Notes under the pieces: generated by a model
What the model was told of the DNA's origin: nothing
Database searches by the model: none
The model's input: the letters and a program-made list of their open reading frames with translations, nothing else
Position numbers and translations under genes: made by a program
NCBI GenBank assembly: GCA_946415785.1
Contig: CAMKTV010000001.1
Span: 102,882-150,139, forward strand
Length of the DNA stretch: 47,258 bases
Source: an uncultured Solobacterium sp.
GTDB lineage: Bacteria > Bacillota_I > Bacilli_A > Erysipelotrichales > Erysipelotrichaceae
Direction of reading: 5' to 3'
Part shown: positions 3,125 to 6,648 of the stretch, piece by piece
How the letters are laid out: every line of letters begins with the position of its first letter
How positions within the stretch are numbered: position 1 is the stretch's first letter

Positions 3125-3153
3125 TTGTATATTTACTCCAAAAACTATATAAT
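3125..3153 (+). promoter_or_regulatory. Promoter of AbiE-type pair 1
   Basis: A -35-like TTGTAT (3125-3130), a 17-base spacer and a perfect TATAAT (3148-3153). The predicted start of transcription is near 3160, just before the GGAGG site of the first gene. Confidence 0.6.
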
Positions 3154-3175
3154 ATGTATAGTAACTGGAGGAAAC

Positions 3176-3781
3176 ATGATAAAGACAATTGACGATTTAT
3201 TATTTGAATATAGAAAATATAAGAATCCTTATATCAAAATAGGCCGCGAAGAAAAAAACAAGAAATTAATTAAATTAAAAAGAGGCATATATGCAGATGA
3301 ACTTAATACAAATCCTTTTGTGATTGCTCAATACCTTTATTCACCATCATATATATCATTTGAAAGTGCTCTTTCATATCACGGAATGATTCCAGAAAAA
3401 GTAGTGTCTATTACTTCAGCAACATTTAAAAAGAATAAGACTAAACGCTATACAAATAGTTTTGGTCATTTTGTATATAAAGATATACCAGTTAATGCAT
3501 TTCCTTATAGTGTTGAAGCCATCACTGACGGTAAATACCATTTTCAAATTGCCAGCAAGGAAAAATGTCTCACTGACATGTTGTATAAAGTACCTAGAGT
3601 AAGATCAATTAAAGATTTGATTGTTTTGTTGTTTGAAGATTTAAGAATAAATGAAATTGTGTTTGATGAACTTGATCATAAAGAGCTGTTATTATTGTGT
3701 GATTTATATAACTGTTCTAACACAAAACTATTAAAGAAATATATTATTCAGATTGATAGAGGAGAAAATAATGATAAATAG
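3176..3781 (+). CDS. AbiEi-like antitoxin/regulator of a type IV toxin-antitoxin pair (copy 1)
   Basis: Probable antitoxin partner of the nucleotidyltransferase encoded directly downstream. The best start is the ATG at 3176 (201 aa), preceded by TGGAGGAA; a longer frame to 3125 would overlap the promoter. Seen: an N-terminal winged-helix-like region leading to LIKLKRGIYAD, the characteristic AbiEi 'read-out' strand, then SYISFESALSYHGMIPE, the conserved core that includes the Ser-Ala-Leu motif. In the family (Streptococcus AbiE) this protein represses its own promoter and neutralises the toxin. The gene overlaps the toxin gene by 11 bases, so the two are translationally coupled. Confidence 0.85.
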   Translation: MIKTIDDLLFEYRKYKNPYIKIGREEKNKKLIKLKRGIYADELNTNPFVIAQYLYSPSYISFESALSYHGMIPEKVVSITSATFKKNKTKRYTNSFGHFVYKDIPVNAFPYSVEAITDGKYHFQIASKEKCLTDMLYKVPRVRSIKDLIVLLFEDLRINEIVFDELDHKELLLLCDLYNCSNTKLLKKYIIQIDRGENNDK

Positions 3782-4625
3782 AATTATTTTACAAAGGCTT
3801 AAACATGATAATGTGGATAGTTTAGAAAAAGGAATTAATTCTTTAAGAGAATTAGCGCAAGAAATTTTATTGTTGTCTTTATATAAGAATGGTTTCTTTA
3901 AAAAGGTAGCCTTTTATGGCGGAACATGTTTAAGGCTTTTTCATGGTTTAAAAAGATTTTCTGAAGACCTTGATTTTGCTATTACTGATAATACAGATAT
4001 TGATTTAAACTATTATGAGGATACACTTATTAGTGAATTAAATTCTTATGGCTTAAATGGCACAATAAGAAAAAAAGAGACGTATGACAACAATGACATA
4101 AAACGTCGTTATATAAACATAGATGTATATGATTTATTAAACGAGTATTTTGAAAATAGAGTTAGCATAAATAAAGAAAGACAACTATCAATAAAATTAG
4201 AAGTAGATACCACTTATATAAAAGGAGCTATTTTGGAAAATAATGTTATGTTTTCACCAAACCATGGAAACATCATATCTTATGATCTTTCTTCCTTATT
4301 TTCTGGAAAAATACATGCGTTGATATGTAGAAATTGGAAAAATAGAGTCAAAGGAAGAGACTACTATGATTATTTGTATTATTTAAGAATCAATGCAACT
4401 TATAATCTTGAATATTTACAAAATAAATTAGCTAACACTTTAGGCGCAGAACCTACATATTATACTGAAGAAAAAATTAAGAAATTATTGAAAGAAAGAT
4501 TTGAACAAGTTGATATAGCTTCAATAGTTGAAGATATTGATAGCTTTATTGATGATAAAAACGAAATAGATAGTTTAAACAAAAATATGCTATTAGATTC
4601 TTTAGACTTTTTAAAAGCACGATAG
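3771..4625 (+). CDS. AbiEii-family nucleotidyltransferase toxin (copy 1)
   Basis: Toxin of a type IV (AbiE) system; AbiEii/MenT-type toxins are nucleotidyltransferases that arrest growth, in studied members by modifying tRNA. Seen: the polymerase-beta-fold signature GGT at residues 50-52 (FYGGTCLRL) and the metal-binding SEDLDF with Asp67 and Asp69, followed downstream by the KIHALICRNWKNRVKGRDYYD block common in this family. The start is the ATG at 3771 with GGAG 7 bases upstream; a TTG 18 bases earlier is less likely. 284 aa is about normal. It overlaps the antitoxin gene, which fixes the pairing. Confidence 0.9.
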   Translation: MINRIILQRLKHDNVDSLEKGINSLRELAQEILLLSLYKNGFFKKVAFYGGTCLRLFHGLKRFSEDLDFAITDNTDIDLNYYEDTLISELNSYGLNGTIRKKETYDNNDIKRRYINIDVYDLLNEYFENRVSINKERQLSIKLEVDTTYIKGAILENNVMFSPNHGNIISYDLSSLFSGKIHALICRNWKNRVKGRDYYDYLYYLRINATYNLEYLQNKLANTLGAEPTYYTEEKIKKLLKERFEQVDIASIVEDIDSFIDDKNEIDSLNKNMLLDSLDFLKAR

Positions 4626-5728: not shown

Positions 5729-5759
5729 TTGACATTATTTATTATATTTTTTGTATAAT
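5729..5759 (+). promoter_or_regulatory. Promoter of type III toxin-antitoxin locus
   Basis: Consensus TTGACA (5729-5734) and TATAAT (5754-5759) separated by 19 bases. Transcription would start near 5766, just ahead of the RNA repeats. Confidence 0.7.
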
Positions 5760-5765
5760 AAATAT

Positions 5766-5947
5766 GGAGATATAATCTCTAGGGCATGTCCCCATCGCAA
5801 AGCATGATGTCGTGTGACGGTACTGACACGACGGTAAAATAAAAATAACCAAGCGATGATGATGTGTGACGGTACTGACACATCGATAAAATAAAAGTGA
5901 CCGTGCGATGATTATTAAAGGCGTCTAAACAATGACGCCTTGTTTAT
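5766..5947 (+). ncRNA. Type III antitoxin RNA: two 51-52 nt pseudoknot repeats plus terminator
   Basis: Candidate RNA antitoxin. Repeat 1 is at about 5802-5852, repeat 2 at 5853-5904, with a third partial start (GCGATGAT) at 5905. Each holds a 7-bp stem: GTCGTGT/ACACGAC at 5809-5815/5826-5832, and GATGTGT/ACACATC at 5861-5867/5878-5884. Two of the seven pairs are exchanged compensatorily while the loop GACGGTACTG is identical. In each repeat the loop bases (C)GGT can pair with downstream ACC(G) (5848-5850; 5900-5903) across an A-rich linker, giving the H-type pseudoknot typical of ToxI/CptI antitoxins. A terminator hairpin (AAGGCGTC at 5918-5925, GACGCCTT at 5934-5941) separates it from the toxin gene, as in known type III loci. 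Confidence 0.8.
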
Positions 5948-5961
5948 AGGATGGTAGCATT

Positions 5962-6441
5962 TTGGAAGAATATGATTTTGAATTAAGACTGCTTAATTCT
6001 CAATATTATATAGATTATCCGTCTAACAAATATGTTGACATTCTTTCAAATCAAAAAAGAGGATATGTTATTATTCTTTTTGAAACAAAGTCTGGCTATT
6101 TGGTTGGTACTCCTTTTAGAAGCAAAATAAGACACAATAATTGCTATCATTTTAAAAATTCAGCCAGATCAAAAAGAACAAAGTCTGGCATAGATTATTC
6201 AAAAAGTATTATTCTAGTTGATGATAAATATGTTGATAAAATAAACTATCCTAGAATAGATCAAGACGAATATAACGAACTTATTTTAAAACAAGTTAGA
6301 ATTATGGCGGAAATAAGTGACTATATCGACACTTATATTAGCCATCATAAAAACACAAAAGTATTAGATAAAGAGGAATATGAAAGAAGATATAAATACA
6401 CTTCTTTAAAATACTTTCACAAAGAACTAGGTATTAAATAA
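5962..6441 (+). CDS. Type III toxin-antitoxin endoribonuclease toxin (CptN/TenpN-like, ToxN superfamily)
   Basis: Probable toxin that cleaves RNA and is held inactive by the pseudoknot RNA encoded directly upstream. Seen: 159 aa, the usual size of the CptN/TenpN branch; a short N-terminal beta-strand region (QYYIDYPSNKYVDIL), the core RGYVIILFETKSGYLVGTPF, and the block RSKIRH...F..S.RS...SGIDYSKSII, which I recognise from the TenpN/CptN branch of ToxN-fold toxins. The start is TTG at 5962 behind ATAGGATGG; a weak start suits low toxin expression by read-through of the terminator. The layout promoter, tandem RNA repeats, terminator, toxin is diagnostic. The subfamily name is recalled from motif memory, not from a search. 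Confidence 0.82.
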   Translation: MEEYDFELRLLNSQYYIDYPSNKYVDILSNQKRGYVIILFETKSGYLVGTPFRSKIRHNNCYHFKNSARSKRTKSGIDYSKSIILVDDKYVDKINYPRIDQDEYNELILKQVRIMAEISDYIDTYISHHKNTKVLDKEEYERRYKYTSLKYFHKELGIK

Positions 6442-6455
6442 AGCAAAAAATACTG

Positions 6456-6586
6456 CGAGGTTTGGCTCGTTAAAAACTTGAAATTCATATAGGGCTTCGG
6501 GCACCTATGCCTGCTAAGAGGGGCGTCTTAGAAATTCATGTGTAACTTCGGGCGTACACGGTTGGCAAGCAACAGAAAAACCAAAC
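6456..6586 (+). ncRNA. Unidentified tandem structured RNA (two about 50-nt units)
   Basis: Two imperfect copies with a 51-base period start with GAAATTCAT at 6480 and 6531. Each carries a first hairpin capped by a TTCG-type loop (CATA.AGG/CCTATG near 6485-6509; GTGTA/TACAC near 6540-6559) and a second small hairpin with a (C/G)(T/C)AAG loop. The stem sequences differ while the AAATTCAT, CTTCGGGC and YTG..AAG stretches are kept. GTTTGG (6460-6465) can pair with CCAAAC (6581-6586) to close the whole element; a competing local hairpin CGAG/CTCG lies at 6456-6469. Two terminator-like hairpins follow. I do not recognise the class: it could be a tandem riboswitch-like leader or a free small RNA. 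Confidence 0.5.
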
Positions 6587-6589
6587 ATT

Positions 6590-6630
6590 AAAGTGAGGAC
6601 TCATTCCCATTGGAGTGTTTCCTCACTTTT
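6590..6630 (+). terminator. Strong hairpin/terminator after tandem RNA
   Basis: AAAGTGAGGA (6590-6599) pairs with TCCTCACTTT (6620-6629), with further inner pairing, followed by TTAAATTTT. Confidence 0.7.
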
Positions 6631-6648
6631 AAATTTTGTAAACTTACT

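Follow-up and report, generated by a model that had tools for sequence, protein, structure and literature searches.

The analysed window, a stretch of 47,258 nucleotides from the genome of an uncultured Solobacterium sp., contains on its forward strand a locus that starts with a promoter-like site (5729-5759), whose hexamers TTGACA (5729-5734) and TATAAT (5754-5759) match the consensus in 12 of 12 positions. A short hairpin GGAGAT/ATCTCT (5766-5780), read from the sequence, opens the leader of the predicted antitoxin RNA, and is followed by the leader strand CATCGCA (5793-5799) of what we call the closing helix and by two tandem repeats (5804-5855 and 5856-5907). The tail strand of this helix, TGCGATG (5904-5910), is formed by the end of the last repeat. 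The interval between the repeats and the downstream open reading frame (ORF) includes a terminator-like hairpin AAGGCGTC/GACGCCTT with a weak U-tract (5918-5945), while the ORF itself (5962-6441) starts with TTG and encodes a protein of 159 aa.

The product of this ORF exceeds the cut-off of the NCBIfam TenpIN equivalog model NF047358.1 (138.3 bits vs. the cut-off of 90, E 1.9e-40, positions 1-141 of 141), and was assigned by us as TenpN. Its reading frame is open and the invariant columns are kept. The AlphaFold model of this protein, based on 53 sequences (pLDDT 92, pTM 0.86), was compared by VIA-align with those chains that were ranked highest by Foldseek. The closest structures were those of the five solved type III toxins, namely ToxN-Bt (Z 10.5), AbiQ (9.8), CptN (9.8), ToxN-Ec (8.6), and ToxN-Pa (8.4), followed by MazF/Kid with Z of about 5-6. 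In the ranking by Foldseek alone, ToxN-Pa was at the top with a modest E of 6.8e-3. Thus, the ToxN fold, which had been proposed for this protein from the DNA sequence and for which a comparison with known structures had been named as a check, is recovered in the predicted structure, and TenpN is modelled as having the ToxN/MazF-like endoribonuclease fold of type III toxins. The kinship of TenpN to ToxN is argued by the fold and the locus layout, since the profile-profile comparison of TenpN with ToxN by hhalign indicated no link at the sequence level (probability 0.7%). Pfam and PADLOC scans assigned no family to the ORF, and sequence searches of PDB with TenpN returned chance matches only, with no solved TenpN among them.

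The two repeats upstream of tenpN are both 52 nt long and 83% identical, and the score of the match of the region to itself (38) is far above the maximum obtained for shuffled sequences (12.6, n = 100). Each repeat contains a stem of seven base pairs, all of which can form (GTCGTGT/ACACGAC at 5809-5815/5826-5832 in repeat 1 and GATGTGT/ACACATC at 5861-5867/5878-5884 in repeat 2), and the loop GACGGTACTG, which is identical in both of them. The exchange of stem pairs between the repeats, pointed out in the original prediction, is therefore confirmed as a compensatory change in the first stem (S1). Also the predicted ability of both repeats to form an H-type pseudoknot holds, albeit not to the same extent. 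In repeat 2, CGGT (5870-5873) can pair with ACCG (5900-5903) in all four positions, whereas the pseudoknot of repeat 1 is limited to GGT (5819-5821) with ACC (5848-5850), as its outer pair is a C-A mismatch and the helix is one pair short.

Homologous repeats were identified in 86 loci. The repeat unit common to them comprises a 7-bp stem, a 10-nt loop G-A-CGGT-TCT-G, an A-rich linker GGTAAAATAAAAAT, the ACCG strand, and a tail. With the detector that we used, exactly two units were found in 79 of the 86 loci, at a spacing of 51-55 nt. In the covariation test, based on 36 two-unit loci and on an alignment built by MAFFT independently of structure, 98.4% of cells were paired and both-side changes were observed in 16 of the 22 pairs. 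The covariation score of these loci was 0.393, as compared with 0.115 +/- 0.011 in shuffles and with no more than 0.067 in sliding controls; in four of the five covariation measures the observed value was not reached in any of the 500 shuffles. Moreover, in each of 15 distinct cases in which the loop differs from CGGT (TGGT, CTGT, CAGC, CGGC, GGGT, GAGC, TAGT, or AAGC), the 3' strand is changed to match it. The covariation of stem and pseudoknot pairs and the re-matching of altered loops support both helices of the pseudoknot, in agreement with the expectation that homologous loci carry covarying repeats. Rfam 15, applied to the window and to the loci scanned, gave no match to a TenpI model, and chance hits alone at a permissive threshold. 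The TenpI RNA of this consensus is thus widespread but absent from Rfam, and the alignment of the loci could underpin the first Rfam-style model for TenpI RNA of this kind.

The transcription signals proposed for the locus are present as far as the promoter hexamers, which are perfect, and the hairpin are concerned, but neither of the signals is called by a scanner. The promoter is not reported by the simple scanner because its spacer of 19 nt is outside the range of 16-18 nt, and the 8-bp hairpin (5918-5925/5934-5941) is not called by the terminator scanner run over the locus because of its weak U-tract (TTGTTTA). The layout of type III operons requires a leaky terminator between the antitoxin and the toxin. 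Promoter sites comparable to the one in the window occur no more than 110 nt upstream in 58 of the 86 related loci, and the leader hairpin, as judged by eye, is common in them. The predicted fold of the transcript 5768-5945 is better than that of 200 of 200 shuffled sequences (z -3.5).

The anatomy of the sequence, homology, predicted fold, and covariation directly support the assignment of the Solobacterium sp. locus, and we consider it almost certain that it encodes a type III toxin-antitoxin system of the TenpIN family, composed of two 52-nt pseudoknot repeats and a MazF/Kid-like TenpN. Hence, the type III identity suggested in the original prediction is borne out by the NCBIfam TenpIN match, the ToxN-like predicted fold, and the tandem pseudoknot repeats upstream of the toxin gene. 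The locus shares with TenpIN systems (Photorhabdus type, and its relatives from Firmicutes and plasmids) the toxin family, two pseudoknot repeats of about 50 nt, the terminator-like hairpin, and the downstream position of the toxin gene. TenpIN relatives of enterobacterial plasmids and of a Vibrio phage also contain two repeat units, at a spacing of 49-50 nt, but the enterobacterial ones differ from the locus described here in the repeat sequence and in the 4-nt spacer between the pseudoknot strand and the stem. CptIN of Eubacterium rectale is similar in the toxin fold (4rmo, Z 9.8), in the number of repeats (two), and in a long loop rich in A that crosses the first stem (PMC4627078), but its repeat is 45 nt long and of different sequence. 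While the CptIN model NF047359 is present in the NCBIfam library, the sole match of the Solobacterium sp. toxin at E <= 1 is TenpIN, which speaks against CptIN membership. Similarly, ToxIN and AbiQ systems resemble the locus in the toxin fold (4ato, 4glk, and 2xd0) and in the order of promoter, repeats, putative terminator, and toxin, but their repeats are of 34-38 nt and in 2-5.5 copies. ToxIN membership was rejected, as the ToxN_toxin family PF13958 is absent from the Pfam scan of the window and from the whole genome.

The length of the repeats, which exceeds that of ToxI and CptI repeats, together with the lack of an Rfam model for the RNA, could indicate that the locus represents a new and separate type III subtype, as was initially suggested for this locus. 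We find this highly improbable, given that the toxin scores above the TenpIN cut-off and that TenpIN repeats of 50 nt in 2.1 copies (PMC12373285), as well as of 53 nt and 55 nt, each in 2.1 copies (PMC6315513 Table 3), have been published, so that neither the repeat length nor the presence of two copies marks a new subtype. The two repeats of 52 nt fit the range published for TenpIN (41, 50, 53, and 55 nt). Nor is the RNA without resemblance to any other, as had been assumed, since its consensus recurs upstream of the toxin gene in some 86 loci. The locus is an ordinary, new member of a family that is already known, and a well-defined addition to this type III family, which has been little studied.

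The locus could also be a degenerate remnant, homologous to TenpIN but no longer working. Several homologous loci with broken toxins, as well as the C-A mismatch by which repeat 1 lost a pseudoknot pair and the poor, 19-nt spacing of the promoter, are consistent with such decay. Nevertheless, we regard it as quite unlikely in the face of the open frame of the toxin gene with its invariant columns, the perfect pseudoknot of repeat 2, the compensatory nature of the inter-repeat change in S1, and the intact closing helix. Finally, repeats that precede a gene and run up to a terminator-like hairpin might act in cis as an attenuator or a riboswitch-like leader of that gene rather than as a trans-acting antitoxin, and the helix between the leader and the tail could influence termination. 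However, this helix does not overlap with the terminator stem, and tandem, nearly identical pseudoknots next to a gene for a ToxN-fold product represent the layout of type III systems, whose RNA binds to the protein; we ascribe to the cis-regulatory role a very low probability.

Assuming the TenpIN identity of the locus, its mode of action can be proposed by analogy. In the ToxIN and CptIN systems, the toxin cuts the precursor RNA, the repeats bind the toxin and block its active site, and the loss of transcription frees the toxin (PMC5086642, PMC4627078), and TenpIN of Photorhabdus aborts phages (PMC5377504). We infer from the family membership that the Solobacterium sp. locus may function likewise. 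A single promoter would drive the synthesis of RNA carrying the two 52-nt pseudoknot repeats. Most transcripts would end at the weak hairpin to provide the antitoxin, and the read-through would allow for the production of TenpN, a MazF/Kid-like putative endoribonuclease. TenpN would cut the precursor to release the individual repeats, and each of them would bind TenpN and block its active site, probably in a closed ring; that this ring is of the CptIN-like 2:2 type is a guess prompted by the number of repeats and their A-rich pseudoknots. Upon a stop of transcription, e.g., during phage infection, the RNA would be lost and the freed TenpN could cut cellular RNA.

A feature that goes beyond the original prediction is the closing helix, in which CATCGCA of the leader can pair with TGCGATG of the last-repeat tail by 7 bp. 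Across the loci, this helix is of 6-11 bp, its leader strand is located 5-9 nt 5' of the first stem, and it covers the GAWG core of the tail in 66 of 75 loci. One of its positions is occupied alternatively by G-C, A-T, or C-G, and another one by A-T or T-A. As the best helix was taken for each locus, pair counts are inflated; this bias is addressed by a leader-swap control, in which the mean score of the own helix was 16.96, vs. 13.29 +/- 0.36 with swapped leaders (73 distinct loci; maximum of 14.67 in 5000 swaps). The evidence for the helix takes the relatedness of the loci into account only in part. Where the tails of the repeats differ, the last repeat pairs better with the leader in 45 loci and the first one in 9, with 11 ties. 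In a tree-based test of low power, the leader and tail states matched at one position in 60 of 60 cases, with about seven changes on the tree, but no more than one to two independent pairs were located on strongly supported branches. Both-side changes of the helix occur only between loci whose toxins are less than 70% identical, and none was found between loci above 70% identity. The helix is missing in nine loci, and is thus not essential to the family. Outside the loci of this consensus, a potential 7-bp match of leader and tail (GTAGTTT/AAACTAC) was recognised by eye in the Vibrio phage relative, whereas no closing helix was seen in the TenpIN loci of enterobacterial plasmids or in the ToxIN loci inspected by eye.

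We see about an even chance that TenpI precursors, here and in most relatives, are tied into a ring-like form by the conserved helix of the leader and the last tail before the toxin cuts them. We found no mention of such a layer of architecture in the part of the type III toxin-antitoxin literature covered by our search. The helix may set the number of repeats delivered or keep the ends of the precursor safe. As a guess, by closing the array it would protect or position the unprocessed outer ends until processing. If it is real, models of folding and cutting of type III precursors would have to include the leader besides the repeats.

Genes of the TenpN family were found in one of the 36 genomes of the genus and, in the family-profile search, in 14 of the 273 genomes of the family; in the order, they were present in 22 of the 316 genomes. 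Single-protein pattern searches of genome and viral collections returned no TenpN relatives, which were recovered instead by the family profile and closer alignment. In a collection of named genomes, TenpN candidates occur at 139 places, 80 of which were examined, and the carriers include Thomasclavelia, Erysipelotrichaceae, and many Lachnospiraceae and Oscillospiraceae. This patchy distribution suggests horizontal spread. In the loci of the order, the class, and other Firmicutes, matching tandem repeats are located immediately 5' of the toxin gene at a spacing of 51-55 nt. In four loci (L006, L023, L025, and L044) the repeats are kept and the toxin frame is interrupted by stop codons, as expected for a costly toxin that is often lost.

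Certain relatives are associated with other RNAs. In five TenpIN loci of the class (L028, L029, L030, L031, and L014) the repeat is of another kind and shorter, about 42 nt (of the GTGTGAGAGTAACACT.. type; 42 in L030), which implies that at least two types of RNA accompany the TenpIN toxins there. In L009 (oriented positions 1205-1369) and L013 (minus strand, oriented positions 1234-1396), two tandem repeats, of 82 nt and 79 nt, respectively, are located upstream of genes of TenpN-like toxins whose scores (47 and 28 bits) do not reach the family cut-off. These repeats far exceed 55 nt, the longest listed for TenpIN, and may represent an undescribed subgroup of type III systems. L016 (1252-1369) combines a weak TenpN relative (43.6 bits) with three repeats of 53-54 nt and of unrelated sequence (AAGTGTGGTCTCCGAGGGTAACGGGAC..). 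The TenpN match in L019 is followed, about 130 nt further downstream, by the Rfam DUF3800-XI RNA (RF02975, 55.7 bits; 1322-1369 on the minus strand).

Directly 3' of the toxin gene in the window, a candidate structured RNA (6442-6635, forward strand) comprises two units 51 nt apart with the loop CTTCGGGC, whose stems differ (ATAGG/CCTAT in the first unit and GTGTA/TACAC in the second one), followed by a hairpin that resembles a strong terminator. The predicted fold of this candidate RNA has a z of -2.6; it has no match in Rfam, and no real relative of it was found in the genus. On the other side of the TenpIN locus, about 1.1 kb upstream, the forward strand encodes a type IV toxin-antitoxin pair AbiEi/AbiEii (3125-4625; PADLOC AbiEi E 3e-55, AbiEii E 5e-72), separated from it by a 342-aa ORF without a family match. 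Possibly, the AbiE pair and TenpIN form a small defence island.
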